From: Streptomyces tsukubensis
GTDB taxonomy: Bacteria; Actinomycetota; Actinomycetes; Streptomycetales; Streptomycetaceae
Assembly: GCF_009296025.1 (NCBI RefSeq)
Contig: NZ_CP045178.1
Location: 6,944,001-7,008,000, forward strand
Direction: 5' to 3'
Length of the DNA: 64,000 nucleotides
Positions 2,092-20,643 of the stretch are shown one piece after another (the stretch's first letter is position 1; each line of letters begins with the position of its first letter). Position numbers and translations under genes: made by a program. Below the pieces are notes generated by a model. It saw only the letters and a list, made by a program, of their open reading frames with translations. It did no database searches and had not been told where the DNA came from.

Positions 2092-3272
2092 CATCCGGAC
2101 AGCCGCTCGTAGACCACCAACTGAGGGTGAACCTGCGGGTGATGGACACGGCCCAGTACGATCGCGGCGGACATCGGCAGTGCGGGCAGCACATGCAGGC
2201 GCTTCAACATCTTGACCTCTGCCTCCAGTTCGGCGAAGAAGCCCCGAAGCGCCTCCGCGAAGCGCTCTAGGCAGCCGCGAGCAGCCATGATGTCCGGTCC
2301 CGTCGGCGCCCCAACCGGACGAATCTCCCAGCGACGCATTCCTCTCAGCGGCGCCGGCACTTCCTGTGCTCCGATAGCCCCCGACACGTTGATGAGCACT
2401 ACGGCCTCTCTCCCGGACGGCACATCGTGATCGACCCGTGCGGCGAAATTTGGGGCCAGACCGTCCTCCTCGCGCCACACCCACGACTCGTCCTCACGGT
2501 GCCGCTGGTAGATGTCCGTAGGCACCGTGTCGTCCAGCCGAGAACCCAGATGCACCAGCAGCGGCAAGCGTGCGAAGCCGAACACGCTCACATGCCGTAC
2601 GGCATCGCGCGTGATGCCGGGCCGTAACTGCCGTTCGATCACGCCGTCGACCAGCTGGGTCGCCATGCGGTAATACGCACGACTGGCAGTTGCCTGCGAC
2701 GCCGTGTATGGGGCGGCCTGCGATTCGCCGGGCACACCACGCAGGTCGATTTCGAGGCCATGGCGCGTGTAGGACTCCAGGAACAGCGGATATCGGTCCC
2801 TGGCGATGACCGCAGTCGCAGCGGTCTGCCGGGACAACTCCACCTGATTGCCGTGCACCGAACCCACCATCCGCACCACCGTGGTTGCGCGGTCCGAACC
2901 AAGACCCGTCACATGCCGAATCCGGTCCTCATGTTCTTGCTTGACCCGGCGCAGCTTCTCCACCGTGAACAGATCCAACCCGCCTGCTGCATCGACCTCA
3001 TCGTGCTGATCGGCGCACAACAGCATCAGATTGTCCGCATCCTCCCTCTGCGCGCGGTCCAGTGGATGCTCACCCCGTGGAGAGCGGACGCTGCTGCCGC
3101 GGCCGACGATGTGAGCCAGCTCGCCAAGATTTAGCGTTCGCCAGGACATGGAGCCCTCCAACAGGTAGGCGTTACAGAGAGCGCACCTGCCCCCACTGCG
3201 CACCCATACCTCCCGGCGTACCGGTTCGGACGGCTTGCCGCTCGCACCTCTTGTCCTGCCTTGTCTCTTCAC
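1998..3272 (-). CDS. cap5: HNH-SAVED effector nuclease, Cap5-like
   Basis: 424 residues from a GTG start with an AAGGG-type ribosome site. An HNH nuclease sits at the N-terminus: C30/C33, H54 in LAHIVG, N81 in DADNLMLLC, C86 and H90. A SAVED domain fills the rest, with its typical stretch VFGFARLPLLVHLG followed by W.WRE. In Cap5 proteins SAVED binds the CD-NTase product and switches on DNA degradation by HNH, killing the infected cell. The gene faces the cyclase/E2-E1 pair tail to tail instead of following it. One leucine codon is TTA (2625-2627, in frame), so full translation would need the bldA tRNA in Streptomyces. Confidence 0.88.
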   Translation of the reverse strand: MKRQGRTRGASGKPSEPVRREVWVRSGGRCALCNAYLLEGSMSWRTLNLGELAHIVGRGSSVRSPRGEHPLDRAQREDADNLMLLCADQHDEVDAAGGLDLFTVEKLRRVKQEHEDRIRHVTGLGSDRATTVVRMVGSVHGNQVELSRQTAATAVIARDRYPLFLESYTRHGLEIDLRGVPGESQAAPYTASQATASRAYYRMATQLVDGVIERQLRPGITRDAVRHVSVFGFARLPLLVHLGSRLDDTVPTDIYQRHREDESWVWREEDGLAPNFAARVDHDVPSGREAVVLINVSGAIGAQEVPAPLRGMRRWEIRPVGAPTGPDIMAARGCLERFAEALRGFFAELEAEVKMLKRLHVLPALPMSAAIVLGRVHHPQVHPQLVVYERLSGCYVPTLEVGGPSGSSVGTVARSAGGSSGWAV

Positions 3273-3510
3273 GGTGCCCGCCCTTCGACCCAGTTGACAC
3301 TTGCTCCTCGAAGCTATGCTGCAACGGCCACTACCTCGAGTGGGCTTGACAAACTCCGGGGGCGGTGCTGTGCGCTCCGGTCAAATCAGCGTCGTGCGCC
3401 ACAGGGAAGTCCGGGGTCGACATCAGCCCTGAGTCGGCGGGGCGCTGGTTCCCCAGCAGGACTGGGGTGGACGTATGTTGGCGGCTAGGTGATCTCTATT
3501 GGGGGCTGGG

Positions 3511-6201
3511 GTGCCAGGTCGGGATCTGCGAGCACTGTTCAGTACGAACGACCGGACGCTGGGGGCTGCGGAGGCGTTCACGAACCGGCAGGCGCAGTGG
3601 GAGTTCGCGGTGGCCGCGCTCGCCGAGCACCTGCGACATGTCAGCAACTCTGCCTTCGACCCTGAAGACCTGGAGGCTGCCCGCGACAACGTGGTGGTCT
3701 TCCATGGGATCGGTGGCATCGGGAAGTCCACGCTGTCGCGCAAGTTCGAGGCGTCCCTCGCCGACCCGTGGCAGCGCCCCGCCCAGTGGGGTGCCCCCGC
3801 ATGGGGTGGAGCGCGGATCCTGCCCGTACGGATCGACCTCGCGCGCTCCGCGAGTCCCGATTTCGAGAAGATCGTGCTCTCCGTCCGCCTCGCGCTGGCC
3901 GCTATCGGCCAGCCTCTGCCTGCCTTCGACTTGGCGTTGCGCCGCTACTGGGAGCATCAGCACCCGTGGGATCCGCTGGAGGACTTCCTCAACCGCGGCG
4001 GGCTGGCCGCCCGGTTCGGCAAGGCGCTGCCGCAGCAGATGCAGTCCGCGCTCGCCGACGTCGCCCAGGCCCTGCTGCTGCCCGGCACGGTGGGCTCCGC
4101 AGTCGGGCAGGTTACCGGGGCGCTCGTAGGAGCGCTGCGCGAGCGTCGGCAGACCGTGCGCGCGCTCGCCGGCTGCTCTCGCCTTGCCGACCTCCTGGAG
4201 AGCGAACCGGATCTGGACTCCCTCTCCTACTATCCGCACCTGCTCGCCTGGGAAATCGCCCGGGTACCGGCCGAGAAGTGGGTTACGCCGGTGATCTTGT
4301 TGGACGCCTTCGAGGAGATCGGAGATCGTACTCACCGAGACTTCGAGCGACTCCTGCAGCGTCTGGTGTGGTTGATGCCGAACGCCTTCTTCGTCATCAC
4401 CGGCCGCTCCCGCCTGCAGTGGGCTGACGAAGCGCTCCAGGGCCAGCTCGACTTCACCGGCTCCACCGCCTGGCCCGGCCTGGCCGCCCACGACATCCCC
4501 CAGGCCCGTAACGAGTTCCCCACCCCCCGCCGCGAACGGCAGATGCTGATCGGCGACTTCTCCTTCGAGGACTGCGACGACTATCTCGCCCGCCGTCTCT
4601 CCGCCGACGGCAGCCCCCTCATCAGCGAGCCCATCCGCACGGTGATCGGCCAGCGCTCGCACGGCCTGCCGCTGTACCTGGACCTCTCCGTGATGAGGTT
4701 CCTGGAGCTCCGCCGCAGCGGGCACACCCCGCAGCCGACCGACTTCGACCACGAATTCCCCGCCCTGATCGCCCGTACCCTCTCCGACCTCACCGCCCCC
4801 GAGCGCCACGTTCTGCGCTCCGTCAGCCTCTTCTCCTCCTTCGACGTGGCACTGGCGACCCGGGCCGCGGCTCTGCCGCAACAAGCGTCGGCGCAGAGGC
4901 TCGTTGAGCGTCCCTTCGTACGGGAGACTCCGTGCGGACTGTGGCCCTACCACCTCCATGCCCTCACTCGCGCGACGATCCGCGGTGCCGACGACCAGAC
5001 CGACGACCGGTGGTCTCCGGCCGACTGGCAGCAAGCTGCCATCCGGGCCTTCGCCGCCCTCGGAGAGCGGTGGAGCGGTGGCTCGGACCGTGACCGGCTG
5101 CTTCTCGTGGGCTGCTTACGTCAGGGACTGGCCATCGCCCGCGACTACCGTCTTGACCTCGGCTGGCTCACGGAGGCCGCCTGGACTTACGTCGGCGACT
5201 CCGTGTGGGAGCCGCTCGACCTGGCCGCCAGCTCTGAGAGGGAGGTCGAAGCGGCCACGGCCGCCGACGCACTGGTGGAGTTGCTCAGCGCGCTCGCCCG
5301 CCGGCAGCACCAGAACCGGTCCCGCACCGTGGAGCGCCTGGTCGCGGTCGCAGACACCGGCCTGCTGCCTGCGGAGTTGTGCGAAATGGCCGTCTACTAC
5401 CGGGCCAAGGCGCAGCGCGACCTCGGGCACACCGAGGGGTCCCGCCAGGGAATGCAGTTGGTCGTCGCCGGTGGGGGACGTCTTGCACCGAACGCCCGCC
5501 GCGGGCTCGCCCATCTCTCCCGGCTCGCCGGTGACTTCCCGACCGCTCTTGAGGCCGCTGAACACTTGGGCCGGGCGGGCCGCCACCACCGCGTCGTCGG
5601 CGACGTGCGCTGGGTTCAGGGCGACATGTCCCTGGCCGCGCAGGCATTCGGGGCGGCGCGCGCGGAGGCCGAAGAGCACGGGAAGAGCGGGGAGGCAGCC
5701 ATGTCACAGGCCATGCGTGCCTTCACCCTCGCCTTCACGACCGACCCCATCACCGATGACGAGATCGACCTCGGTGAACACCTCCTGGCCCAGGTCGATC
5801 TACGCGCCGCGGCCCTGGACATACGGATCGCAGCACTCCTGCGCGACGCCGGTACGGACGCCGGAGTCGAGGGCCGGGCACAGGTCCTGGCGGCAGAGAT
5901 CAACACGTCGGGACTGCTCTTCGTCCAGGCCAAGCTCGAGTTGGCACGCGCCTTCCACCACGCCATTCGCGACGACCAGGCGGGCGTCGCCTCCAGAATC
6001 AGCCGGCTCCGCGAGCTGACCCGTGAGGGCTACTACGCCTACTACGTCGACATCGCCCACTTCATGGCCGACCTCGCGCTCGACACCCCCTCCCGTGCGC
6101 AGTGGCTCGACGAGCAGCAGACGGTGCACCAACGGTGGCGCAGCATGGTCACCGACCGACGCGCTCTGCTCATTTCAGGGCCAGCCACCGGAGCACCGTA
6201 G
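3511..6201 (+). CDS. STAND-type P-loop NTPase with helical-repeat C-terminus
   Basis: 896 residues from GTG at 3511 (GGGGG at 3500-3504 gives fair spacing); a TTG at 3499 in the same frame is an alternative. After a short N-terminus comes a P-loop GIGGIGKST (66-74), a Walker B-like VILLDAFEE, a sensor-like ITGRSR and a winged-helix-like region. About 400 helical, Ala/Leu-rich residues then resemble TPR repeats. This order fits STAND regulators, which use the repeats to sense a ligand and the NTPase to switch. No effector nuclease or TIR domain is seen. It lies beside the CBASS locus, divergent from the Cap5-like gene, so a defence role is a fair inference but unproven. It has an in-frame TTA codon at 5116-5118. 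Confidence 0.7.
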   Translation: MPGRDLRALFSTNDRTLGAAEAFTNRQAQWEFAVAALAEHLRHVSNSAFDPEDLEAARDNVVVFHGIGGIGKSTLSRKFEASLADPWQRPAQWGAPAWGGARILPVRIDLARSASPDFEKIVLSVRLALAAIGQPLPAFDLALRRYWEHQHPWDPLEDFLNRGGLAARFGKALPQQMQSALADVAQALLLPGTVGSAVGQVTGALVGALRERRQTVRALAGCSRLADLLESEPDLDSLSYYPHLLAWEIARVPAEKWVTPVILLDAFEEIGDRTHRDFERLLQRLVWLMPNAFFVITGRSRLQWADEALQGQLDFTGSTAWPGLAAHDIPQARNEFPTPRRERQMLIGDFSFEDCDDYLARRLSADGSPLISEPIRTVIGQRSHGLPLYLDLSVMRFLELRRSGHTPQPTDFDHEFPALIARTLSDLTAPERHVLRSVSLFSSFDVALATRAAALPQQASAQRLVERPFVRETPCGLWPYHLHALTRATIRGADDQTDDRWSPADWQQAAIRAFAALGERWSGGSDRDRLLLVGCLRQGLAIARDYRLDLGWLTEAAWTYVGDSVWEPLDLAASSEREVEAATAADALVELLSALARRQHQNRSRTVERLVAVADTGLLPAELCEMAVYYRAKAQRDLGHTEGSRQGMQLVVAGGGRLAPNARRGLAHLSRLAGDFPTALEAAEHLGRAGRHHRVVGDVRWVQGDMSLAAQAFGAARAEAEEHGKSGEAAMSQAMRAFTLAFTTDPITDDEIDLGEHLLAQVDLRAAALDIRIAALLRDAGTDAGVEGRAQVLAAEINTSGLLFVQAKLELARAFHHAIRDDQAGVASRISRLRELTREGYYAYYVDIAHFMADLALDTPSRAQWLDEQQTVHQRWRSMVTDRRALLISGPATGAP

Positions 6202-6298
6202 CCGCCGTGGCGATGTGCTCAGCGGTTGCCGTTGATCTGGAGCGCTAGGACAGCCAGCAATGGCGCCGATTGCCAAGTCGTGTCTCGCATCGCAGTCG

Positions 6299-6580
6299 TC
6301 ACCGGAGAGTCGCGCGGCATTGGAACGCATACTGCGCTTCGGCGCCGAACTTCTCGGCCTGGGCCCGCATCGTCTCCGTCAGCACGGGCCCGTCGACGCC
6401 CTCGGGGAAACCGGGGAAGTTCTCGACTTCGGTCGTGGTGGTGAGCGAGCCGCCGACGAAGATGGAGCTGCCGAACAGTAGTGGACACAGCTGGGCGCGG
6501 GCGGTGTAGAGGGCGGCGGTGTATCCGGCGGGGCCGGAGCCGATGATGATGACCTCGCGTATGTCGTCTCTGCTGGTCAT
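6299..6580 (-). pseudogene. Thioredoxin reductase (TrxB/ArsT-type), N-terminal remnant
   Basis: About 85 residues match the start of thioredoxin reductase: [20 protein letters not shown] (FAD site), [24 protein letters not shown] and [14 protein letters not shown]. The match then stops in unrelated residues and a stop codon. The usual protein is about 310-330 residues, so the CxxC centre and NADPH domain are gone. It starts 4 bp after the arsC remnant, as in actinobacterial ars operons where the reductase supports arsenate reduction. Confidence 0.8.
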
Positions 6581-6584
6581 CCGC

Positions 6585-6740
6585 TCACGCCTCCTGCGGG
6601 GAGTCGATTTCGGCGATGAGGGCCTCGATGCGGGTCTTGATCTCGTCGCGGATGGGGCGGACGGCGTCGATTCCCTGGCCGGCCGGGTCTGCGAGGGCCC
6701 AGTCGAGGTACTTCTTGCCGGGGAAGATCGGGCAGGGGGC
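6585..6740 (-). pseudogene. Arsenate reductase (ArsC, low-MW phosphatase type), C-terminal remnant
   Basis: About 50 residues match the C-terminus of Ars[30 protein letters not shown] and a helical end. The N-terminal catalytic loop is missing and the sequence before CPIFPGK is unrelated, so a deletion or insertion junction lies near 6740. With the adjoining thioredoxin reductase scrap this marks a decayed arsenic-resistance operon. Confidence 0.75.
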
Positions 6741-6861
6741 CGCACACCGCCAGAGACCACCGGTAGCAGCAGGGATCCTCATTTCTCGTAGCGAGGTGAG
6801 CCGCTGGGCGCGGCTGTCGTGTCGCCGAAGGACAGCAAACGGCTCCCAGGAAGGGAACTCA

Positions 6862-7203
6862 TTAGAGTCCGCTGACGGGCTGTCCGGTGAGGGCTTGGGC
6901 GACCTGCCACAACATGCCGCCCCGCGATGCCTTCGTCAGGACAACGTCTCCAGGGCGGAGGACGGAATCGACGTATGCCGCGGCGGTTGCGTTGTCAGCG
7001 ACGATCGCCACGTCTGGCACTCCCGCTGCGCCCGCAGCGAGAGCGAGTTGCTTTGCGAGGTCCCCGCCGACCGCCACGACGAGATCGACGCCGCTCTCGC
7101 CGGCCATGCGTCCTACTGCCCTGTGGGCCTCCAAGGCTTCGTCGCCCAGTTCCAGCATTTCCCCGAGCACGGCGATCCTCCGGCCGCCCTCTGCCTCGGT
7201 CAT
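6862..7203 (-). CDS. Stand-alone MurF C-terminal (Mur ligase) domain
   Basis: 113 residues from an ATG that overlaps the stop of the C39-type gene (ATGA). The text RRIAVLGEMLELGDEALEAH, VVAVGGDLA, DNATAAAYVDSVLRPGDVVL and KASRGG matches the C-terminal domain of MurF, which binds the incoming dipeptide substrate. The UDP-MurNAc and ATP domains of a full ligase (about 450 residues) are absent, so it cannot ligate by itself. It begins almost exactly at the domain border and is coupled to its neighbour, which argues for a real gene. The alternative is a deleted full MurF, since decayed ars genes lie just downstream. Confidence 0.7.
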   Translation of the reverse strand: MTEAEGGRRIAVLGEMLELGDEALEAHRAVGRMAGESGVDLVVAVGGDLAKQLALAAGAAGVPDVAIVADNATAAAYVDSVLRPGDVVLTKASRGGMLWQVAQALTGQPVSGL

Positions 7204-7751
7204 TGGGACGCTCCGTTGTGATTGAGGGGTGCGAACGTGATGGCTCGGCCTGTGTAGGAGGGCGCGATCCGGCTCAGGGGGACGCGGTCGTTGGTCTGTC
7301 CCCATGCGGAGGGGTCGCGGATGAAGATGGTCGGGTCCGCCCTGTCCTCGAAGCCGCGCGCGAGGACGAGATGGCCACCGGCCCGGCCGTCGTCGGGGAA
7401 CTGCTCGGTCACCGACATGATCAGCGGTGCTTCTTCGAGGCGGTCGACCAGGCTTTCCGCCGCGATTGGTTCGGCTCGGGCAGGAACTCCGAAGTCGGTT
7501 GCCAGGTTGGCGATGCCGGCATGTAGCGCTCCACGTGGGGTCAACACCTCGTGCTTGACCGCGAGCTTCAGCAGTTCCGTGACTGTTGGTGCCTCACGGC
7601 CGTAGGCGAGCAGGATCATCCTCAGTGACGCCAGGCCGCACGCCCGGTTGGACCACTCGGCCCGGTCTCCCAGTGCCCACCCTCCGTGGAGATCCCATTC
7701 GGCGGGAGCGATGAGCTGTCGGCACATGGGGACGTCGTGGACACGTGGCAC
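7200..7751 (-). CDS. C39-like cysteine peptidase family protein
   Basis: 183 residues from GTG with AGGAG nine bases upstream; Met9 is an alternative start. The triad of papain-like C39 proteins can be read: C38 in RACGLASLRM, H127 in GGHLVLARGF and D146 in IRDPSAW. There is no signal peptide and no ABC transporter domain, so it is a free cytoplasmic protease or acyl/peptidyl transferase. It lies between the Ddl-like gene and the MurF-domain gene, which suggests it acts on the peptide or amino-acid product of this operon. The substrate is unknown. Confidence 0.65.
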   Translation of the reverse strand: MPRVHDVPMCRQLIAPAEWDLHGGWALGDRAEWSNRACGLASLRMILLAYGREAPTVTELLKLAVKHEVLTPRGALHAGIANLATDFGVPARAEPIAAESLVDRLEEAPLIMSVTEQFPDDGRAGGHLVLARGFEDRADPTIFIRDPSAWGQTNDRVPLSRIAPSYTGRAITFAPLNHNGASQ

Positions 7752-7763
7752 AGCGGCGTGCTC

Positions 7764-8855
7764 CTACGGTGAGACGGCAGCCTCCCGTGTTGGTGTGGAG
7801 CCGGCGAACGCGGGAGTGGGCAGGGGGACATCGTATGGCGGGCGGGTCAGGGCCTCGTGGAGCATCGCCAACACGATGTCTGTGTGAGTGAGCCCGACCA
7901 TGGCCCCGCCTACGGCGAAGTTGCTGTCACGCGACATGCCTGGCGTCGTGTTGACCTCCAGGGCGTGCACCTGGTCGGTTTCGGTGAGGATGAAGTCCAC
8001 CCGAGCGGAGCCGCGCAGGGCCATCCCATCCCACATCGTCTTGGCGTAGCCGGTGATCTCGGCCAGCAGTGCGGGCTTCAGGTCGGCGGCCCTGACCGTT
8101 ACAGCGCCTCTGGAGTCCGCATCGAGCTTCGTATCGGCGTCGTAGAAGTCAGCGTCAGCGACGTCGGTAGCCAGTGGTGGGTGGACGAGTACCGCTCCTC
8201 CGGGCAGCTCCAGCAGTCCTACGGTGAGAGGTATGCCGGGAACGTAGTCCTCGATCAGTACGGGATCTCTCTCATCGCGGGCAGCGTCCGCCAGGGCCAG
8301 CGGAAGGGCTGCCTGGTCGCGGACCAGGCTCATGCCCACGCTGGAGCCGCCGAAGGGCGGCTTGACCATTACGGGTGTTCCGGTCCAGTCCGCCGGGCCT
8401 CCTGACCACACCCACCAGCCGGGCGTCGGGACGCCCAGGCTCTCCATCACCCGCTTGCAGAGAATCTTGTCGGCAGCCACCGCCGAGGCGGCGACGCCGC
8501 TTCCGCAGTAGGGCATGCGGATGTAGTCCAGGAGTCCTTGCAGGCGTCCGTCCTCGCCGAACGGGCCGTGGAGGTTCGAGAGGGCCACGTCGTATCTGGC
8601 CAGTTCCGGGATGAACGTCGGCTCGCACGGGTCCAGGACCTTCCACCGGGCGCCGATCTCCTCCAGCGCCCCGGACAGGGCTGTCACCGAGCGCTGCTCC
8701 ACGGGACACTTCGAGTGGTAGAGCCGATCCTCAAGGCTGACCGGGCCGTAGAGCAGGGCGACGCCGATCCCCTGCCGGTCCTGCTGCCAGTCGCGAAGCG
8801 CTTGGGTCGCCTGCTGCACGGTCCTGCCGGAGCTGGTGTCCAGGAAGAGCGTCAT
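7764..8855 (-). CDS. D-alanine--D-alanine ligase homologue (ATP-grasp)
   Basis: 363 residues; the ATG overlaps the stop of the DapF-like gene (ATGA). ATP-grasp features are clear: ADKILCKRVMESLGVPTP, VKPPFGGSSVGM as the ATP loop, an IEDYV strand, then RGSARVDFIL and EVNTTPGMS for metal binding. Ddl joins two D-amino acids with ATP. A housekeeping Ddl is expected elsewhere in the genome, so this copy probably makes a special dipeptide or amino-acid amide, fed by the epimerase encoded upstream. It could instead be a resistance ligase, but no VanH/VanX partners are present. Confidence 0.75.
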   Translation of the reverse strand: MTLFLDTSSGRTVQQATQALRDWQQDRQGIGVALLYGPVSLEDRLYHSKCPVEQRSVTALSGALEEIGARWKVLDPCEPTFIPELARYDVALSNLHGPFGEDGRLQGLLDYIRMPYCGSGVAASAVAADKILCKRVMESLGVPTPGWWVWSGGPADWTGTPVMVKPPFGGSSVGMSLVRDQAALPLALADAARDERDPVLIEDYVPGIPLTVGLLELPGGAVLVHPPLATDVADADFYDADTKLDADSRGAVTVRAADLKPALLAEITGYAKTMWDGMALRGSARVDFILTETDQVHALEVNTTPGMSRDSNFAVGGAMVGLTHTDIVLAMLHEALTRPPYDVPLPTPAFAGSTPTREAAVSP

Positions 8856-9652
8856 GCGAGTACCCCTTCGAATGTGTGGGTGACAGGGCCGCCGACCCAC
8901 TGCGTGCGCGTCGGCCGGTCAGGGTGCGGGCGTACCGTCAGTGGCTCCCCGGCCTGGTTGTGGACGGTGACGGGGCGCCGGGCGACCAGCCCGCGCATGG
9001 TGGCGATGACGACTGCAGCGACCGCTCCACTGCCGCAGGACAGCGTTTCGGCTTCCACACCGCGCTCGTAGGTGCGGATCCTCAGCTCTTGACTGCCAGC
9101 GGACTGGACGAAGTTGACGTTCGTGCCGAGCGGGGCAAGGTCGGCATGGTGGCGGATGAGGCGGCCGACCGTGACGGTGTCGATGGAGTCCACGTCAGCC
9201 ACGACCGCGACCACGTGCTCGGTGCCGGTGTGCGCACTGTCGAACCACGTCGGCCTGCCGTTGATGACCGCCTGAACACATCGCGGTTGAACAGCGCCGA
9301 CTTCGGCCGTGACCCACACGGCGTCATCACTCACGACGGCCTCGTGCGTCACCCCAGCCATGAGGAGGCCCATCGTCGTGAGGCCATGGTCTTGGCGCGC
9401 CAGCCAGGCGGTACAGCGCAGGGCGTTGCCGCACATCGTCGCGGTCGAACCGTCCGCGTTGAAGCACGCGACTTCGATCAGGGCGGGGTTCGTGCTGATC
9501 AGCCTGCTGATGACTTGGCCGTCAGCACCCACGCCGGTCCTTCTGGCACAGAGCTGTTCGGCCTCCTTCGCCCAGTTGTTGTCGCTCTCCGGCGCGGGGT
9601 CGGAGAGGAAGACGAAGTCGTTCCCCGCTCCGTGGATCTTGCGAAAGCGCAT
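8852..9652 (-). CDS. Diaminopimelate epimerase homologue (DapF family)
   Basis: 266 residues from the ATG at 9652, preceded by GAGGAG. Both catalytic cysteines of PLP-free DapF racemases are present: C74 in NADGSTATMCGNALRC and C206 in EAETLSCGSGAVA. FRKIHGAGNDFV is the classic N-terminus. The active-site text differs a little from housekeeping DapF (NALRC for NGxRC), as seen in pathway-specific homologues such as the O-ureidoserine racemase of cycloserine biosynthesis. It probably supplies a D- or meso-amino acid to the Ddl-like ligase it is coupled to. The substrate is inferred only. Confidence 0.75.
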   Translation of the reverse strand: MRFRKIHGAGNDFVFLSDPAPESDNNWAKEAEQLCARRTGVGADGQVISRLISTNPALIEVACFNADGSTATMCGNALRCTAWLARQDHGLTTMGLLMAGVTHEAVVSDDAVWVTAEVGAVQPRCVQAVINGRPTWFDSAHTGTEHVVAVVADVDSIDTVTVGRLIRHHADLAPLGTNVNFVQSAGSQELRIRTYERGVEAETLSCGSGAVAAVVIATMRGLVARRPVTVHNQAGEPLTVRPHPDRPTRTQWVGGPVTHTFEGVLA

Positions 9653-9713
9653 GGCGAAGCTCCTCATTCCGGTGAGGTGACGGCTCTGCGTTGGTATGAA
9701 GGGGCCGGTGGAA

Positions 9714-9956
9714 TCAGGTGAGTTCGATGGGCCGATACGTGATCGTCGACTGCCTCATGACCCAAGGAGGGTGCCCGTCGAAGATCAGAACCCGCTGCGC
9801 GGCGGTGCCGGCGGCGCGCATGTCCTGGACCCGTAGGAACATGTCGTCGAGGTGAACGAAGTCACCGATGTGGACATCGCTTGGCGGCCGCAAGCGGGCA
9901 GTGGTACCGAGTGGGGCGGGTGGGGGAGCCGAGTCACTACTTCGCCGCTCGTACAT
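9714..9956 (-). CDS. Small protein of unknown function (80 residues)
   Basis: Not recognised. The start ATG directly follows the stop of the 28-residue gene (TGA-ATG), so it belongs to the operon. After a Pro-rich N-terminus, a core of about 50 residues (VHIGDFVHLDDMFLRVQDM..VLIFDGHPPWVM) looks like a small beta-rich fold with a valine/aspartate binding-loop pattern. It lies just before the DapF-like gene. No signal peptide or membrane segment. Confidence 0.5.
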   Translation of the reverse strand: MYERRSSDSAPPPAPLGTTARLRPPSDVHIGDFVHLDDMFLRVQDMRAAGTAAQRVLIFDGHPPWVMRQSTITYRPIELT

Positions 9957-10043
9957 TCAGCCCCTCCAGATGGCGAGCAGCAGCGCCCCGCCCAGTGACA
10001 AAAGGCTGGCTACGTAGGCGACCTGTCCTCCTCGGGGGCTCAT
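9957..10043 (-). CDS. 28-residue single-pass membrane peptide
   Basis: A very short gene, ATG to TGA. Its ATG overlaps the stop of the Nudix gene (ATGA), and the ATG of the 80-residue gene follows its stop with no gap. The product starts MSPRGGQ and then has one hydrophobic helix (VAYVASLLSLGGALLLAIW) ending in Arg-Gly. Exact placement at both junctions argues for translation. It could anchor or assist operon enzymes at the membrane; nothing more can be said. Confidence 0.5.
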   Translation of the reverse strand: MSPRGGQVAYVASLLSLGGALLLAIWRG

Positions 10044-10579
10044 GCGGCCCCTGCCAAGTGGCCGTGGAGGCGCTCGCGCACCGATGGGATGCCGATCTCG
10101 GCTATGGGCACCCAGGCCGCCGCGCCGGTCTCGATCATGGTGGGGAAGCCGGCCCCCGAGTGGGCGCGGAAGAGGTACCGGAAGCCGACCCTGATGCGAG
10201 GGCCGTACTCGGGTGCGGCCCTGGTCACGTCGACCAGGAAGGGCCCCTCGCTGCCCGGCTCCGTCCAGACGTCGCGGATACCGGCTTCTTCGGCCAGTAG
10301 GCGCAAAGCTGCGCCGCTGAGGGAATCGTCCTGGGGCTCTGGAGCCAACTCGGCGAGAGAGTAGCCGCCACCGTGCCGCAGGGACAGCACGCGGTGGAGC
10401 TCATCCACGATGACCGCCCCAGCCGTCACCAAGGGGCACCGGTCGTTGTGGCGACAGGACCCACGCCGCGCGTGATCGCGCACAGCGTCGTACAAGGGCA
10501 TGAGGGCCGTCGACTCGGCAGGGTGCTCGTGGATGTAGTGCGCGAGCTCCTTCACGATCTGGTGGTCTCTGATGCTCAC
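10040..10579 (-). CDS. Nudix hydrolase
   Basis: About 179 residues from a GTG that overlaps the stop of the gene before it (GTGA). The region LVTAGAVIVDELHRVLSLRHGG..YSLAELAP fits a Nudix fold, and LRLLAEEAGI is the second half of a Nudix box with its metal-binding Glu pair; the usual RE is RL, so the box is degenerate. An N-terminal helical part of about 55 residues has a Cys/His-rich stretch (RRGSCRHNDRCPLV). Nudix enzymes cleave NDP-X bonds. Here it may clean up or trim a nucleotide-linked intermediate of the operon. Confidence 0.7.
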   Translation of the reverse strand: MSIRDHQIVKELAHYIHEHPAESTALMPLYDAVRDHARRGSCRHNDRCPLVTAGAVIVDELHRVLSLRHGGGYSLAELAPEPQDDSLSGAALRLLAEEAGIRDVWTEPGSEGPFLVDVTRAAPEYGPRIRVGFRYLFRAHSGAGFPTMIETGAAAWVPIAEIGIPSVRERLHGHLAGAA

Positions 10580-10965
10580 GGGGCACCGAGCCCGTTGTGC
10601 TGGGTGTAGATCCACAGCAGTTGGCGCGTGAGATGGGCGCTATCCCGGAGGTAGATGAAAGCGCCGAACGAAGTGGTCTCCGCGGTCGGGCGGCTCGTGT
10701 AGTCGACGAGCTTGCGGCCCCGGTGGAGCAGCTCCTGTACGCCCTCGTCCTCTGCCGTTCCCAGGTCCTCAACAAGGAGTCGGTTGAGGTGCCCAAGGAT
10801 CACGGACGTGGACCCGTCCATTTCCTGACGGGTGGAGGTGGCCATCTGCATGGCGAGGACCATGTTCGTGCTGACGGAGATCGTCTCTACATCGACCGGA
10901 AGAACTCCGTTCTCAGTGTTGCCGGTTGCCCTCGGTTGCTTGCCTCTACTTGCCACAGTCATCAC
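10576..10965 (-). CDS. Hypothetical protein, first gene of the Nudix/DapF/Ddl operon
   Basis: Not recognised. 129 residues from a GTG (or the ATG just after it) with GGAGGG about 10 bases upstream. It is mostly helical, with TRQEMDGSTSVILGHLNRLLVEDLGTAEDEGVQELLHRGRKLVDY, and has no signal peptide or membrane segment. Its stop overlaps the start of the Nudix gene. A GAACTTGCCA box (11047-11056) lies about 80 bp upstream and suggests control by the neighbouring WhiJ-type regulator. Confidence 0.5.
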   Translation of the reverse strand: MMTVASRGKQPRATGNTENGVLPVDVETISVSTNMVLAMQMATSTRQEMDGSTSVILGHLNRLLVEDLGTAEDEGVQELLHRGRKLVDYTSRPTAETTSFGAFIYLRDSAHLTRQLLWIYTQHNGLGAP

Positions 10966-11046
10966 CGCTTCGCCCTCCGGTGCACGTATTCCAGCCGTGC
11001 CAGTAACGCTAGGAAGGGTGATGGCAAGGGCTCTACGAATGTGCCG

Positions 11047-11056
11047 GAACTTGCCA
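11047..11056. promoter_or_regulatory. GAACTTGCCA box before the Nudix/DapF/Ddl operon
   Basis: The 10-mer GAACTTGCCA sits in a longer GTGCCGGAACTTGCC block (11041-11055). A 14/15 match of that block, and two exact tandem copies of the 10-mer, lie before the 76-residue gene at 12654. A shared operator of the regulator encoded between them is the simplest reading. Confidence 0.45.
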
Positions 11057-11061
11057 GGGAA

Positions 11062-11907
11062 TCACCTGAGCGATGCGATGGCCGCCGTAATCAGCTCGCG
11101 TGCCTTGACGCCGTACACCGCCAGCTCAGCCAGGTCGGTGAACGTCTGGGCGTACAGAGCAATTTCATGCTTCTGCGTAATGGTGAGATGGGCCGATACG
11201 AGCTCCACCTGGACGGTGTGGTCGTCGAAGAGGAAGAAGCCTTCGCACGGCCACAGGGCAGAGCGGTCGGCGTCTTCGGGGATGATGCCAATGCTTACCG
11301 AAGGCAGCGCTGCAGCGCTCAGCAGGTAGCCGAGTTGGCCGACCAGCATCTCGGTTCCACCGATGCGCTTCCGGAGTGCCGACTCTTCCAGGAGGATCGC
11401 GAATCGGTGGCTGCCGTAAACGATCTCCTGCTTGTCGACTCGTACTTTCACGGCCTCCGGAACATCGTTGATGAGCCCGCGCCGACTTTGAATGGAAGTC
11501 AGCAGGGCGTTGATGTACGAGGCGGTTTGTACGGGGCCCGGGACCAGCGCGTGTGAGTAGATACGGAAGCGCTCGGTGCGCTCCCACAGGGGCAGCACGG
11601 ACTCCTGGGCCTGCTTGAGGCCGGAGCGCTCCATCTTGCGCCAATCGACGTACATACCGTCGATTCCGCGGGCAGTGGAGACGAGATCCTCGGCAGTATC
11701 CGCAGCGCCGCAGGCAGAAGCCCAGCCTCGGAGGTCGGCCTCGGAGGGGGCGCGCGTGCCGCTCTCGAAGCGTGAGCACTTTGACTCGTGCCAGCCCAGG
11801 AGAGCGGCCAACGCCCGCTTGGTGAGTCCGGCGTCATTCCGGATCTCGCGAAGGCGTTGGCCGAGGGTCCTACGTGCTTCCTGGACACTTGAAGACGGTG
11901 AGGTCAT
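11062..11907 (-). CDS. XRE regulator with DUF5753 (WhiJ/Scr1-like)
   Basis: 281 residues. An N-terminal XRE helix-turn-helix (about 13-70: LGQRLREIRNDAGLTKRALAALLGWHESKCSRFESG) is joined to a DUF5753 domain (about 100-275: SHALVPGPVQTASYINALL, ILLEESALRKRIGG, ALWPCEGFFLFDD). Such proteins are abundant in Streptomyces, usually beside one or two small partner genes, and regulate development or local genes. Here the partners are the DUF6879 gene and the 76-residue gene upstream. It stands between them and the Nudix/DapF/Ddl operon, whose upstream region carries the same DNA box. Confidence 0.85.
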   Translation of the reverse strand: MTSPSSSVQEARRTLGQRLREIRNDAGLTKRALAALLGWHESKCSRFESGTRAPSEADLRGWASACGAADTAEDLVSTARGIDGMYVDWRKMERSGLKQAQESVLPLWERTERFRIYSHALVPGPVQTASYINALLTSIQSRRGLINDVPEAVKVRVDKQEIVYGSHRFAILLEESALRKRIGGTEMLVGQLGYLLSAAALPSVSIGIIPEDADRSALWPCEGFFLFDDHTVQVELVSAHLTITQKHEIALYAQTFTDLAELAVYGVKARELITAAIASLR

Positions 11908-11933
11908 ATCGCTGAGAAGCGCTATTCGCTGCG

Positions 11934-12446
11934 TCAGAGCGGCCGGAACTCGGCATGCGGCGTTGCGCGCCGCCAGACGGCATCGAAGGCCGTTTCGCAG
12001 AGCTTCGCCGACTCCGGGGATTCGTTGAGCTCCCGCTCCAAGTTCTCGCCCTCACCGTCGAAATGGTTGACCAGGACGAGCTGGGCGTCGAACAGCCAAA
12101 AGTCGTTGCCTGGCAGAGCAATGTCGGTGGCTTCGCGGCGTGACAGCCATCGCACCTGCTCTCCGGCAGCGATGTTGAGCCCCTCCGTGACCTCGTACTC
12201 GAAGCGGATGTACTCGCTGATGGGTGTGGAGGCGATTCGTGCCCGGCGGACCTCGACACCTCGCGACGTCGCCGCCGTGACCAGCGTGTGCCAATCGGCC
12301 CAGCGCTCTGCAGGGTCAAGGGACTTGCCGGCACGCCAGTCGATGAAGGCCGGGTCCGACTTCATGTAGGCGTCGCGCATCTCCAGATGAACAGCCGTCC
12401 TCTGGCAGTCGCGGAACAGATCCTCAAACGTCGGGACCCTCGTCAC
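11934..12446 (-). CDS. DUF6879 family protein
   Basis: 170 residues from a GTG start that overlaps the end of the upstream 76-residue gene by 23 bp. It has the DUF6879 pattern: FEDLFRDCQRTAVHLEMRDAY, FIDWRAG, RGVEVRRARIASTPISEYIRFEYEVT, DFWLFDAQLVLVNHF. The family is nearly always next to DUF5753 regulators in actinomycetes, as here. The biochemical role is unknown; an accessory of the regulator is the usual suggestion. Confidence 0.8.
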   Translation of the reverse strand: MTRVPTFEDLFRDCQRTAVHLEMRDAYMKSDPAFIDWRAGKSLDPAERWADWHTLVTAATSRGVEVRRARIASTPISEYIRFEYEVTEGLNIAAGEQVRWLSRREATDIALPGNDFWLFDAQLVLVNHFDGEGENLERELNESPESAKLCETAFDAVWRRATPHAEFRPL

Positions 12447-12654
12447 CCTTCACCTCCAAGAAGAACTGCACCATGCGACGGGGGATCTCCACCACCGACT
12501 CGTGACCAGGAAGGTCCATCTCGTTGAGGCGCTCCTCGTCGAGAACCGTCACGCCCTGGACAAGGTAGGTGTTCTTCACGTCATCCAGGTAGATCGTGGG
12601 GGAGCCCCCACTCGGGCTTTCCGGGTCCTTACCGAGCTTGATCAGGGCCATCAT
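12424..12654 (-). CDS. Small partner protein of the DUF6879/DUF5753 locus
   Basis: 76 residues from ATG at 12654 with a strong GGAGGT; a second ATG follows at once. Features are MALIKLGKDPESPSGGSPTIYLDD, VQGVTVLD and HESVVEIPRRMVQFFLEV. I recall similar short proteins beside DUF6879 genes in Streptomyces, but no function. It heads a three-gene unit with DUF6879 and the XRE-DUF5753 regulator, and its upstream DNA carries the GAACTTGCCA repeats. Confidence 0.7.
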   Translation of the reverse strand: MMALIKLGKDPESPSGGSPTIYLDDVKNTYLVQGVTVLDEERLNEMDLPGHESVVEIPRRMVQFFLEVKGDEGPDV

Positions 12655-12683
12655 GTCCACCTCCGTTGAAGGTAACGATCGCT

Positions 12684-12740
12684 GTGCCGGAGCTTGCCCC
12701 CATCTCCGGCTCCGGACGAGGAACTTGCCAGAACTTGCCA
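12684..12740. promoter_or_regulatory. Repeated GAACTTGCCA operator region
   Basis: Two perfect head-to-tail copies of GAACTTGCCA (12721-12730 and 12731-12740) and a GTGCCGGAGCTTGCC variant (12684-12698) precede the 76-residue gene. The same element recurs at 11041-11056. Probably binding sites of the XRE-DUF5753 protein, giving autoregulation. Confidence 0.5.
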
Positions 12741-12818
12741 GAAGAACGGTGCTCATGGAGAGCAGGCTGGCGTGGGATCGGCCTGTTGGCGGCCGGATTG
12801 GCACGAGCGCTGCCGCAA

Positions 12819-14519
12819 TCAGCGTCGCCGTGGGGGCGGCGGCTGCGGCGCCGGAGTAGGTGTCGAAGCGGGCGCGGAGGCGGTGGGGCGTTGTGTGGTG
12901 CTGCGGAACCTTGCTGCCTGCGCCCGGGGGCCAGACGCGTGGCGTTCGCCGAGGCGGCGGATGCGCCAGGTCAGCGTGCGGGCGGGGCTGTGGGCGTCGT
13001 CCAAGGTGCGCTGGCCGAGTGCCTGGTCGAGGACGGTGGTTGCGCTGTGCCCGGCTGCCTCCGCTTCGGCGAGCACGGTGGTTAGTGCTTCCCACGCGGG
13101 GTCGTTGAGGACGCGCTCGGCGTGCTCCGGCACCGCCTGCTGTAGGTGGTGGGCGAAGCGGCGCTTCATCTGGGGGCTGGGGGCGCGTTGCGCGAGGCCG
13201 GTCAGGACCGGCTCGGCGACCCGTGCGTACGCAATCTGTAGATGGATGAGGGCTTGTTCGGCTGCCGCTTCCTGTTGGGCGTGCTGGTGGGTGCGGTGCC
13301 AGTGCTTCGCGAAGGCCACGGCGGTGAGCACGGTGTCCAGGAGCATCGCGATTCCGGCTCCGTCGCTGTCCGAGGGCCGGTCGCGCCAGATGGCTCGGAC
13401 GCTGCGGCGCAGGACGCGGGTGCTGTCGAGGTCGGCTGTGATGCGGGAGCGAGTGGCGCGCTCGAAGGCGGCGGCGGCCTGTTCGAGCTGGGCCTTCACT
13501 GCGGCAGGTGCGTTGATCGGCAGCAGGTCCAGCGTCGCGCCGAGTGCAGCCAGTTGGCCTTGGGCGGTCTGGTCGTCGCTGTGGGTGAGGTGGTGGGGGA
13601 TGCGGTCGGTGGCTGCGGTGGCCTGGTGCCACGGATCACCCGGCCGGACGGTGACAGGTTCGGGACTGGTGGTGGCGAGGGTCTTGCGGATCTTGGGCAG
13701 GGACAGGTCGGGCGCGAGCGTGGAGCCCGCGTAGAACACCGGCTCGCCCTTGTCGTTGGTGTCGCCGGGCAGGGCGAAATTGCAGCCGAGAGCCTCGCCG
13801 GAAGGGCCGAGCTTGAGGCGCACGGTCACGCCTGTGGCTTCCAGCAGGGTGAAGAACTCGGCCTCGTCGGACGCGGCGGCGACGGCGCGACGGACCCGCA
13901 GGCGCAGGACATCGCGGGTGGCGGCGTCCTGGCCCAGACGCTTGGCCTTGAAGTGTTCCTTGCTTGTGGGCCGCTTGGCTCCGGTGCCGTCGCCCGGCTT
14001 CAACCGCCGCAGCCCGTAGTCGACTTCGATCTGGCGGGCCTCACGCTGGACGGCGCGCTGGTCGTAGCCGCGCTCGGGGCGGCGACCGTCCTGGCGTACG
14101 AGGGTGGCGGCGATGTGGATGTGGTCTTCGGCGTGGCGGACGGCGACCCAGCGGCAGGCTTCCTCGTCACCGTCGGGGGCGATACCGGCGGCGGCCACCA
14201 TTCGGCGGGCGACGTCCGCCCACTGGGCGTCGCTGAGGATCGGGTCTTCTGGTGCGGCGCGTACGGGGCAGTGCCACACGGTGTCCTTGGGCGCCTGGTC
14301 GCCCAGCATCCTCACGGGCTGGTCGAGCTGCGCGACGAGCTGGGCCATCGCGTCCTTCGGATCGCGGTGAGGGCTGCGGCCGGGGTCGGGGGCGAAGCTG
14401 TTCCAGGAGGCTGTGAGGTGCGGGTCGATGTGCTCGTTGGCGCGGCCCTTGCCGAAGAGGTAGCCGATCGTGCGTCGCGTGGCAGTCGGGCCCGAGCTGA
14501 GGATGATTTTGGGTATCAC
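12819..14519 (-). CDS. Relaxase / mobilisation nuclease (MobA/VirD2 type)
   Basis: 566 residues from GTG at 14519, five bases after the MobC stop. The N-terminus (IPKIILSSGPTATRRTIGYLFG) and the metal-binding motif VRHAEDHIHIAATLVR around residues 130-145 match actinobacterial relaxases that nick at oriT. A later YGLRRLKPGDG..RPTSKEHF block and a long helical C-terminus with a Pro-rich tail complete it. It would start conjugal transfer of the element. No FtsK-like TraB or coupling protein is visible here, so the element may be mobilised by another one. Confidence 0.8.
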   Translation of the reverse strand: MIPKIILSSGPTATRRTIGYLFGKGRANEHIDPHLTASWNSFAPDPGRSPHRDPKDAMAQLVAQLDQPVRMLGDQAPKDTVWHCPVRAAPEDPILSDAQWADVARRMVAAAGIAPDGDEEACRWVAVRHAEDHIHIAATLVRQDGRRPERGYDQRAVQREARQIEVDYGLRRLKPGDGTGAKRPTSKEHFKAKRLGQDAATRDVLRLRVRRAVAAASDEAEFFTLLEATGVTVRLKLGPSGEALGCNFALPGDTNDKGEPVFYAGSTLAPDLSLPKIRKTLATTSPEPVTVRPGDPWHQATAATDRIPHHLTHSDDQTAQGQLAALGATLDLLPINAPAAVKAQLEQAAAAFERATRSRITADLDSTRVLRRSVRAIWRDRPSDSDGAGIAMLLDTVLTAVAFAKHWHRTHQHAQQEAAAEQALIHLQIAYARVAEPVLTGLAQRAPSPQMKRRFAHHLQQAVPEHAERVLNDPAWEALTTVLAEAEAAGHSATTVLDQALGQRTLDDAHSPARTLTWRIRRLGERHASGPRAQAARFRSTTQRPTASAPASTPTPAPQPPPPRRR

Positions 14520-14523
14520 CCGC

Positions 14524-15129
14524 TCACCGCCCCTCAGTGACCTGAGCGATGGCGGTGTCCAGCTCGGCGACTGACGCCTCGACGCGGTCCAGAAGCCGTT
14601 GGACGGTGTCGGGGTGGGGCCAGGCGCCGTCCTTGTGGAGGTGCCAGGTGAGCTGGTTGAGGTTGTTGCCGATCTGGCCGAGCTGCCCGTTGGAGGCCAT
14701 GAGTGCCTTGATCATGGCGCGGTAGTCGGCGACGGCTGCGGTGGGGTCGTCGGAGCGGGCGGCGGCGAGCGAGCACTCGGCCACGTAGCCGCCGAGCGCC
14801 ATGCGGCTCAGAGCGGCGGCGTTCTGGACAAGGGCGAACTCGTCGTCGTTGTAGCGGGGGTGGACGCGGCGCTCGCGCAGCTGCTTGTCACGCAGACGGC
14901 GACGCGGTGCAAGCTGATGCGGCTCGTTCGACGACGGCTCGATGCCCCCTGTCTCGGTCGGCACCCTTGGGCCGACCGACTCCGGTGCCGCCTCGGCGCC
15001 GGATGCCTCCGCCCCCTGTGGGGTGGAGGTCGGGTAAGGACTCCTTCCCCGACAACTTGCTGCGCGTGTGACGGGGGTGGTGGTCGTCTGCTGCTGAGCC
15101 GTGAGGGGTTCGTGGTGCGGGTCGTGCAT
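14524..15129 (-). CDS. MobC-family relaxosome protein
   Basis: 201 residues from ATG at 15129 (GGAG upstream); an in-frame ATG at 15201 would close the gap to the next gene and is possible. The N-terminal 90 residues are low-complexity. The rest fits bacterial MobC: RRVHPRYNDDEFALVQNAAALSRMALGGYVAECSL (ribbon-helix-helix-like) and ASNGQLGQIGNNLNQLTWHLHKDG. MobC proteins open oriT DNA for the relaxase encoded directly downstream. Confidence 0.8.
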   Translation of the reverse strand: MHDPHHEPLTAQQQTTTTPVTRAASCRGRSPYPTSTPQGAEASGAEAAPESVGPRVPTETGGIEPSSNEPHQLAPRRRLRDKQLRERRVHPRYNDDEFALVQNAAALSRMALGGYVAECSLAAARSDDPTAAVADYRAMIKALMASNGQLGQIGNNLNQLTWHLHKDGAWPHPDTVQRLLDRVEASVAELDTAIAQVTEGR

Positions 15130-15248
15130 GGGTCGGATCTCCGTGGGGGTGATGGTGTTGAGGACCTCGCTGCGTCTGGCTTCGATTTCCCCGCGCTGCA
15201 TCCCGAGGGGCGCGGGGTGGACCGCGAGGGTGAGGTGAACGTGGGGAA

Positions 15249-16265
15249 TCAGACGTCGTCGCCAGGCGCGTTGGGTTCGCCCTGTTGCTGGGAGGCGGCC
15301 TCGTCGAGTCCTTCGAGAGACTCGGCCGCGAAGCCGTAGTACGCGACGGGCTCGGCCCGGCCGGTGCGACGCTCGGCCTGCAGCTGGTCACGCAGGACGC
15401 GGGCTCGCTTCTGGCCAATCCGTAGTTCGTTGCGCAGACGCTCGGCGGTCAGTTGGTCTTCGCTCCAGGCGGCGGTCAGGAGTCGGGCCTCGTCGAGAAC
15501 TTCGGCGTCTGTGCGGGTGCGGTCGGTGGTCGACCTGGTGGCGGGGACCCGACCGGTCGCCCGACGCGGGGTGGTTCCGGTCGACTCCGGTACAGCAGCC
15601 GACCGGGACGGTCGGGCAGCGGGGGCGAGGGCGGGGGCCGACTCGTCGGTCTCGGTCGGCCTCGTCACGGGCGCCTCGGCGACCTTCAGAGGGGTCGACT
15701 CAGTCAGCTGCTCGGGGGTGAATTCAGCCTGGTCAGATGCCGACCGGGCAGCCTGCTCGTTGGCTTGCCGACCAGCCGACTCGTCAGCTTGCTGGCCAAC
15801 CGGCTGGGCGGAGGCCGTTTCGGCCGGGTCGGCCGACTCGGGGGTGTGGTGCAGCACCTTCGCCACGAGATCCGAGCCGAAGTAGATCGACCCGACCGGG
15901 AGCGAGGTCGCCAGCAGGACAAGGGCCCAGTTCGCGGGGTCCCAGTCGGTCAGTCGGCCCTGCTGGATCGACGTGGTGTGCAGGGCTGGAATGAGGCCGT
16001 GCACGTAGTTCAGCAGGAGGCTGGCGATCGCGTAGGCCGCCAGGACCCGCAGCGCGAACTTCCGGCCGGGACCGGTCAGCACGAGCGTGGCGATGAGCGC
16101 GAGGGCCATCAGCCCGTCGACCACGATCGGATAGAGCAGAGCGGCGGTGGAGTCTGCGCCGATGGCGCGGGCCACGTCGGACAGCGCGTTCCACGAGACG
16201 CGGAAGGCCATGAGGACGACGGCCACCAGGCCGATGACAAGGGTGATGCGTCCCTTGCGGTTCAC
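15249..16265 (-). CDS. DUF2637 membrane protein (SpdB-like)
   Basis: 338 residues from GTG. Four hydrophobic segments fill the first 135 residues (ITLVIGLVAVVLMAF, LLYPIVVDGLMALALIATLVL, VLAAYAIASLLLNYVHG, WALVLLATSLPVGSIYFG), as in DUF2637 proteins of Streptomyces plasmids and integrative elements, where SpdB-like proteins act in intramycelial plasmid spread. A Gln/Ala/Glu-rich linker and a C-terminal winged-helix-like region (LTAAWSEDQLTAERLRNELRIGQKRARVLRDQL) follow. Confidence 0.75.
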   Translation of the reverse strand: MNRKGRITLVIGLVAVVLMAFRVSWNALSDVARAIGADSTAALLYPIVVDGLMALALIATLVLTGPGRKFALRVLAAYAIASLLLNYVHGLIPALHTTSIQQGRLTDWDPANWALVLLATSLPVGSIYFGSDLVAKVLHHTPESADPAETASAQPVGQQADESAGRQANEQAARSASDQAEFTPEQLTESTPLKVAEAPVTRPTETDESAPALAPAARPSRSAAVPESTGTTPRRATGRVPATRSTTDRTRTDAEVLDEARLLTAAWSEDQLTAERLRNELRIGQKRARVLRDQLQAERRTGRAEPVAYYGFAAESLEGLDEAASQQQGEPNAPGDDV

Positions 16266-18233: not shown

Positions 18234-18377
18234 GGATTCGGACGCGAACGCCTCGGGCTTGATGGTGCGGATTCGGGCGATGTCGTTCGACCACCTTCGT
18301 CGTAAATCGGGGCAGGGAATTCGGGAGGGTGTGCTGGGGGCGTGGACAACACAGCCACACCCAGGGCGCGAAAGTCC

Positions 18378-19342: not shown

Positions 19343-19388
19343 CGCCCGAGCGTCAACGGCACTACAACCCCCGATCCTGAGGAAGTAC

Positions 19389-20636: not shown

Positions 20637-20643
20637 GAGTGGA

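Follow-up and report, generated by a model that had tools for sequence, protein, structure and literature searches.

An eleven-gene Streptomyces cassette with DapF-, Ddl-, C39- and MurF-type genes and its possible kinship to van-like pathways

Introduction

Changing the D-Ala-D-Ala end of cell-wall precursors is a job known mainly from vancomycin-resistance (van) genes. Here we describe a cassette of 11 genes in a 64-kb stretch of the 8.63-Mb genome of Streptomyces tsukubensis (contig NZ_CP045178.1, positions 6,944,001 to 7,008,000; hereafter the window, to whose positions all coordinates refer). The cassette runs on the minus strand from 12651 to 6862 in the order s76, DUF6879, XRE/DUF5753, hyp129, Nudix-fold, tm28, s80, dapF, ddl, C39 and murF-C. 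Its last four genes, the core, encode a DapF-type epimerase, a Ddl-type ATP-grasp ligase, a C39-family cysteine peptidase-fold protein and a freestanding MurF C-terminal domain. We tentatively propose, with a confidence slightly below even, that the core is a van-like accessory pathway which would produce an unusual D-amino-acid dipeptide and change the D-Ala-D-Ala terminus of wall precursors.

The van operons (vanHAX/vanHOX and the D-Ala-D-Ser types) resemble the cassette in combining a supply enzyme for the second residue with a ligase of the Ddl family and, in many cases, a copy of MurF, and in one plasmid a gene of the C39 family directly follows vanX. The cassette differs from them in the lack of VanX/VanY, VanH/VanT and VanRS, in a ligase that scores far below the Van cut-offs listed, in its XRE control and in a MurF cut down to the C-domain. 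No M15 (VanX/VanY-type) domain was found in the ten cassette proteins scanned (tm28 lay outside the scan), nor was VanH or VanT found among them, which leaves the DapF-type epimerase as the one candidate for a supply enzyme. Since the van tests made here came out negative, the cassette is not classed as a van operon. A DapF-like epimerase and a Ddl-like ligase presumably also stand together in one Streptomyces cluster, that of D-cycloserine (DcsC, DcsI); no other dcs gene is present in the cassette, and we know of no C39 or MurF piece in the dcs cluster. The housekeeping DapF, Ddl and MurF belong to the same families as well, the difference being that the cassette ligase and MurF piece fall below the family cut-offs.

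According to the available parts of a study of Micromonosporales (PMC8698665), pdx operons combine genes for a PALP dehydratase and for Ddl-like and VanX-like proteins, adjoin VanRS and are suggested to remodel precursors; the same parts report MurF copies near van genes. The cassette likewise joins an amino-acid-modifying enzyme to a Ddl-like ligase, and its plasmid relatives also have a PALP enzyme, whereas the cassette itself has DapF for PALP and C39 for VanX, adds the MurF C-domain and lacks VanRS; among the cassette proteins scanned no PALP, VanX or VanRS was found, and the pdx triad is thus absent. In Ktedonobacteria, as far as the available parts of PMC9689679 describe them, van loci have lost vanX and gained M15B and C39 peptidases. 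The likeness, drawn at the level of the C39 family, is that of a C39 peptidase in a wall-remodelling locus, but these loci, unlike the cassette, keep vanHA. The part of PMC4229326 available to us places murF within vanI clusters. In their available parts, none of these three papers mentions DapF, a freestanding MurF domain or the cassette in a van context. A preliminary description of the locus had known of no pathway with this set of genes, and this has to be qualified, since related sets have been published, namely pdx (PMC8698665) and, in Ktedonobacteria van loci, C39 (PMC9689679), again on the available parts of these sources. The four-gene core set was not found in literature searches of limited extent, and no wider claim is made for it.

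Organization and conservation of the cassette

Along the seven joins from hyp129 to murF-C, 4-base overlaps occur at four (hyp129/nudix, nudix/tm28, dapF/ddl and C39/murF-C), the tm28/s80 join is a TGA-ATG, and gaps are left at two (61 bp between s80 and dapF, 12 bp between ddl and C39). The preliminary description had read these eight genes as one tightly packed minus-strand unit, and all are located where it put them. Its unit and its TGA-ATG join stand, but it had counted five 4-base overlaps where there are four, and it had drawn the conserved unit too short, since the s76, DUF6879 and XRE genes also belong to it. Of the accompanying genes it named, the MurF piece is a C-terminal ligase domain only and the Nudix box is degenerate.

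When named genomes were searched with the C39 protein, 34 loci were obtained. In 23 of them the core is complete, each of its four genes being full length, so that scattering of the homologues, for which a neighbourhood check had been suggested, is not the rule; homologues scattered without each other are rejected for the cassette, although C39 alone occurs in rhizobia. The core together with xre, DUF6879, hyp129 and nudix is full length in 19 of the 34 (the length test scored murF-C of locus L027, 128 aa, as not full, although it is possibly complete). Join distances, taken only from loci where both genes pass a length test, are -4 for hyp129-nudix in 22 of 22 loci, for nudix-tm28 in 16 of 16 and for dapF-ddl in 27 of 27, and -1 or -4 for C39-murF-C in 26 of 31; DUF6879 and xre lie 24-34 bp apart in all 28 loci, and xre and hyp129 92-99 bp apart in 23 of 24. 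Homology among loci ends at the murF-C stop codon. The flanks vary between loci, and one relaxase cluster has members near 12 of the 37 clustered loci, the window included.

The ten genes tested have median dN/dS values of 0.13-0.40, with single pairs as high as 2.07 (tm28) and 1.04 (s80); loci L001-L006, L032 and L034-L037, lengths outside 0.93-1.08 of the window's and sequences with internal stops were left out of this comparison.

In a sample of Streptomyces (n=392 genomes), C39 was found at E<=1e-20 in 25 genomes, 21 of them with close copies, and 19 of these 21 copies adjoin a full-length ddl and a near-full murF-C, the window's own genome counted; at one of the 19 loci dapF was found only as its last fifth. 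About one in twenty sampled Streptomyces genomes has the cassette. The four core genes, but not the front genes, are also found on two Streptomyces plasmids, with 53-67% identity. In a phylum sample of 396 genomes, where the best eight first-look candidates were scored, the C39 profile found the window's own genome and one weak match, and the wider C39 profile three genomes; most relatives were therefore drawn from Streptomyces and plasmid collections. The counts of the named scan and of the genus sample are not independent: among 20 loci compared (L041-L060), 11 match a named locus without a difference over 1 kb.

Pairing of an s76-to-s80 front half with other back halves was considered and rejected. 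Four loci (L137-L140) have near Nudix copies without C39 and are cut off inside dapF at three different points, after which unrelated genes follow; because all four stop within a dapF remnant, they are decayed cassettes. Three others (L141-L143) have Nudix relatives only.

Epimerase and ligase

The dapF gene (8852..9652, minus strand) encodes a protein that passes the DapF equivalog model TIGR00652 (183.9 bits against a cut-off of 114.65) and keeps both catalytic Cys. The housekeeping motif GNPH is replaced by GTEH in all 15 rows of the alignment. Eleven substrate contacts of Anabaena DapF (9MRO) are named in the available part of PMC12039745, and nine of these are identical in the cassette epimerase, the two changes being Thr226 to Ser and Asn164 to Thr. 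The 2,4-diaminobutyrate (Dab) racemase PddB, according to the available part of PMC8225329, has lost Asn64, Asn157, Asn190 and Arg209 (H. influenzae numbering), three of which are kept in the cassette epimerase. Because the contacts are mostly kept and three of the four residues lost in PddB are retained, a substrate like diaminopimelate (DAP) is likely, not certain, as judged from the sequence. An epimerase of the D-cycloserine type was rejected, O-ureidoserine racemase 7vdy being matched at E 1.4e-21 and the best DapF at 2.7e-33. The genome has a separate housekeeping DapF, with 35% identity to the cassette epimerase over the matched part.

A different DapF homologue was seen in two Streptomyces plasmids (L003 and L004, about 4900-7450), beside genes for a GntD-type hydroxylase and a 204-aa protein. 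Its active-site motifs are changed (CAN for CGN, no ERG), and these genes are a candidate for another amino-acid epimerase pathway.

The ligase gene ddl (7764..8855, minus strand) matches PF07478 at 104 bits, and its product has an altered substrate pocket. It scores 180.8 bits with TIGR01205, below the D-Ala-D-Ala ligase cut-off of 245.65, and reaches none of the Van ligase models among the best 25 of 43 matches (78-107 bits against cut-offs of 495-775). Ser150 and Tyr216 of E. coli DdlB are conserved in ligases that make only D-Ala-D-Ala, according to the available part of PMC7691350. In the alignment the cassette ligase keeps Ser150, while Tyr216 is replaced by Leu, Glu187 by Pro and Leu282 by Asn (E. 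coli numbering). For residues other than Ser150 and Tyr216, the E. coli numbers and the roles are those that we take to apply, placed on the ligase alignment. Leaving aside that of Rhodococcus, all 14 tabled ligases of the cassette, sister, trio and PLP-enzyme types described below carry Asn in place of Leu282, and neither Tyr216 nor Glu187 is retained in any of them. In the Rhodococcus ligase (L148) Tyr216 is also lost, Glu187 is kept and Leu282 corresponds to Ile. The three-residue pocket set of the 14 is missing from VanO, the housekeeping ligases and two rhizobial ligases. In a midpoint-rooted tree of 20 ligases, 15 rows of the cassette, sister, trio and PLP-enzyme types form one group (support 98/94), outside which lie the housekeeping, VanO, L148 and rhizobial rows, the branches of VanO and L148 being long. 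Most C39-linked actinobacterial ligases thus have common altered pocket residues and form one clade.

The genome also has its own separate housekeeping Ddl. Plain duplication of housekeeping genes, named at the outset as an outcome that would undo the proposal, is ruled out for the ligase, the epimerase and the MurF piece by the separate DapF, Ddl and MurF copies and by the differing residues, among them the lost Tyr216 and one changed DAP contact.

C39 protein and MurF domain

The C39 gene (7200..7751, minus strand) encodes a protein that agrees with the C39 family in both Pfam score and fold and carries C38, H127 and D146. In the family alignment Cys and His are invariant and the third catalytic place is Asp or Asn, which we take to be the catalytic residues of C39 peptidases. 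In three Planomonospora loci (L034, L035 and L040) a cassette-type C39, a fragment in L040, was seen without the remaining core; in L034 a ddl remnant stands before it and a second gene of the distant C39 family after it, and in L035 a C39-like fragment stands before it.

The last gene, murF-C (6862..7203, minus strand), matches PF02875 at 42.7 bits over profile positions 36-127. Its product consists of Mur_ligase_C only (a second match is at chance level) and lacks the N-terminal and ATP-binding domains, reaching 61.4 bits with TIGR01143 against a cut-off of 288.6. Among ten matches in the PDB search, the best seven are MurF C-termini and the other three have E 0.036-0.072. The piece is 53% identical to the corresponding part of the housekeeping MurF, a separate gene in the genome. 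A mere gene fragment is contradicted by the median dN/dS of 0.15 and the fixed joins. Four Streptomyces genomes that lack a close C39 also have a freestanding MurF-C. In full MurF, the C-domain closes on the incoming dipeptide; alone, it cannot be expected to ligate.

Recurrence of the module in other genomes and plasmids

The order Ddl, distant C39 and MurF-C recurs in three Streptomyces genomes, with C39-MurF-C in a fourth. The Ddl of this trio is 33-34% and its C39 25-31% identical to the window's proteins over the matched parts, and the gene order is thus kept despite strong divergence of both.

The distant C39 family is present in 53 of 72,556 plasmid records, from which 22 loci (12 actinobacterial, 10 proteobacterial) were chosen by hand and are not a random sample. 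A Ddl stands beside C39 in 11 of the 22, nine actinobacterial and two proteobacterial, and two further loci have only a PLP-enzyme gene or its remnant. MurF is present in seven of the 12 actinobacterial loci, with a MurC-like ligase in four of those seven, and in one locus (L150) both Ddl and MurF are in pieces. Plasmid operons of Ddl, PLP enzyme and C39 with complete MurF and MurC occur, as do Ddl-PLP enzyme-C39-M15 (a VanX-type peptidase) in Rhodococcus and Ddl-PLP enzyme-C39-M55 D-aminopeptidase in Nonomuraea. In a plasmid of Streptomyces NBC_01591 (L164:3323-6630), vanH-vanO-vanX, so named by the record's own resistance prediction, are directly followed by the C39 gene, and MurF is divergent.

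The joint presence of Ddl, MurF and MurC on four plasmids speaks for spare or insensitive copies of wall enzymes that shield the host against inhibition of Ddl or MurF, after the model of the Ddl copy in the D-cycloserine cluster, whose role is presumably protective. We consider this very unlikely, since Tyr216, the mark of D-Ala-D-Ala-only ligases, is lost and the MurF copy is without its other two domains, so that neither is likely to replace the housekeeping enzyme.

A Mesorhizobium C39 gene comes after a peptide ABC transporter and a membrane dipeptidase. Together with the peptidase fold of C39, this would suit a pathway that breaks down or recycles wall fragments or dipeptides of D-amino acids and is switched on by such fragments via the XRE regulator; an ATP-dependent ligase indicates synthesis, however, and the cassette contains no recognisable uptake system, which makes such a pathway highly improbable.

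Possible function

The simplest account of these gene sets is an accessory D,D-dipeptide module that exists in several forms, with a supply enzyme (DapF, PLP enzyme or VanH), a Ddl-family ligase, C39 and MurF. The only member of such a module with a known function is, to our knowledge, the van operon, and by analogy with it the cassette would produce an unusual dipeptide and change the precursors of the wall. In the sequence of events that we envisage, the XRE regulator would sense a signal via DUF5753 and act at two matching operator-like sites, and the epimerase would provide a residue with a D-centre, probably DAP or a near relative of it. The divergent Ddl would then join this residue to a second one, and C39 may remove the normal D-Ala-D-Ala end or dipeptide in the manner of VanX/VanY. 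In the last and weakest step, the MurF C-domain might either hold the new dipeptide itself or bias the MurF of the host.

A more specific form of this proposal, a mobile and self-regulated rewriting of the wall, in which the epimerase and the new Ddl clade would make a DAP-containing D,D-type dipeptide, C39 would clear the normal D-Ala-D-Ala end in place of VanX/VanY and the freestanding MurF domain would make the host MurF accept the dipeptide, is in our estimate unlikely. On the van-like reading, accessory D-Ala-D-Ala metabolism throughout the actinobacteria, with relatives in rhizobia, would involve the C39 family of cysteine peptidases and a MurF domain that stands alone. The reading also suggests that van-type precursor remodelling is one case among accessory dipeptide modules on plasmids and mobile elements. 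If true, the terminal residues of stem peptides would be more changeable in nature than the known D-Ala, D-Lac and D-Ser endings indicate.

Several observations weigh against a van-like role. The cassette is without VanX/VanY, VanH, VanT and a complete MurF and has an XRE regulator in place of VanRS. In 11 of the 34 C39 loci at least one core gene is not full length by the length test, and the function is therefore dispensable. Nine of the 22 plasmid loci, eight of them proteobacterial, have no Ddl or PLP enzyme in the stretch fetched, and in four Streptomyces plasmids partial MurF-C-like and partial C39 matches lie about 30 kb apart, not together. VanO and the Rhodococcus ligase, each beside a C39, lie outside the ligase group, and two C39-linked rhizobial ligases do not differ from the housekeeping ligase of the window's genome at any of the 15 positions shown; the pocket change is thus not universal. 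Finally, a sister type of cluster in Streptomyces (L067 and L068) has genes for Ddl, MFS, C39, a FemAB-like protein and an L-amino-acid ligase; a further such cluster (L069) has no Ddl and a shortened MFS gene, and in L067 a VanX-like peptidase and an alanine racemase are nearby. With its MFS, FemAB-like and L-amino-acid ligase genes, this cluster looks like peptide export.

Because of these sister clusters, which resemble a small-peptide pathway, the serious and main rival is a secreted natural product, a small D-amino-acid peptide directed against competitors or used as a signal, which C39 would trim or transfer and which the MurF piece would bind or use in self-protection. No recognisable transporter is encoded in the cassette, MurF and MurC recur with the module, and the vanHOX operon has the same C39 family; we regard the secreted peptide as rather unlikely. 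For a toxin against peptidoglycan synthesis, which had also been considered, no evidence was found.

Regulation and front genes

The XRE regulator (11062..11907, minus strand) has HTH_31 and DUF5753 (PF19054) and a median dN/dS of 0.13. An operator-like array before s76 (12683..12739, minus strand) consists of GGCAAGTTCT and GGCAAGTTCC in tandem, 10 bp apart, with a third related copy GGCAAGCTCCGGCACA, and an operator-like site, GGCAAGTTCCGGCACA, lies before hyp129 in the xre-hyp129 gap (11040..11055, minus strand). In the window the 10-mer GGCAAGTTCC has just two exact occurrences, on the minus strand at 12729-12720 and 11055-11046, where 0.12 would be expected. Among the loci, the motif GGCAAGTTC is found within 150 bp upstream of s76 in 26 of 28 and within the xre-hyp129 gap in 24 of 25; an exact search of the genome itself for a longer form, GGCAAGTTCCNGGCA, found no match. 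The protein that reads this motif is probably the XRE regulator encoded in the cassette.

The first gene, s76 (12424..12651, minus strand), encodes a small conserved protein with tblastn matches in 28 loci and no Pfam match, and the DUF6879 protein (11934..12446, minus strand) matches PF21806 at 185.3 bits, with a median dN/dS of 0.15. The product of hyp129 (10576..10965, alternative start 10962, minus strand) is predicted to be all-helical (AF2 pLDDT 83.8); it had no PDB match at E<=0.001 and no credible family or fold was found, a relation to DUF6415 being too weak to use (1 of 21 members, E 0.08). The Nudix-fold protein (10040..10579, minus strand) scores 20.9 bits with PF00293 against a cut-off of 21.1, and its degenerate box reads RLLAEE where we take the Nudix motif to have REUXEE; lacking both an intact box and a score at the Pfam cut-off, it is not counted as a Nudix hydrolase. 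The putative membrane peptide tm28 (9957..10043, minus strand) has 28 aa; at its slot, 19 of 22 loci have an open reading frame of 28-29 aa, and the frame is 60, 59 and 20 aa long in L012, L021 and L027. The small conserved protein s80 (9714..9956, minus strand) has no credible Pfam family.

Genomic surroundings

A fused Prok-E2_A/ThiF protein (130-2091, plus strand) matches the E1-E2 candidate defence model of PADLOC (E 3.9e-227). This nearby gene and the adjoining relaxase and integrase genes would be in keeping with an anti-phage or plasmid-competition system that acts on the wall. PADLOC, however, matches none of seven of the eight cassette proteins scanned, the XRE protein alone having weak matches to HTH-type models (best E 6.2e-06), and PHROGs matches none of the eight; such a system is barely probable. 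A defence role was rejected, as PADLOC finds no match in the four core genes, and the wall modification against phage once suggested for the operon is left with neighbouring candidate defence genes only.

Near the end of the cassette a 900-aa protein (3499-6201, plus strand), with only sub-threshold NACHT/NB-ARC matches, is a possible STAND-type ATPase. Just past the cassette the start of an apparently truncated thioredoxin-reductase-like gene (6299-6562, minus strand) was recognised by eye, a Pfam scan of part of it giving nothing. No tRNA was found in the window, no Rfam match at gathering score in 1-25000 and no convincing flanking att-like direct repeats in 2000-22000. On the other side, mobile-element genes (12819-20636) encode relaxase-like, MobC/NikA-like, DUF2637, IstB-like ATPase and replication-initiator-like proteins and a tyrosine integrase, and the cassette is likely mobile. 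The relaxase-like protein beside the cassette, whose cluster is the one near 12 loci, was named by eye and has no Pfam match.

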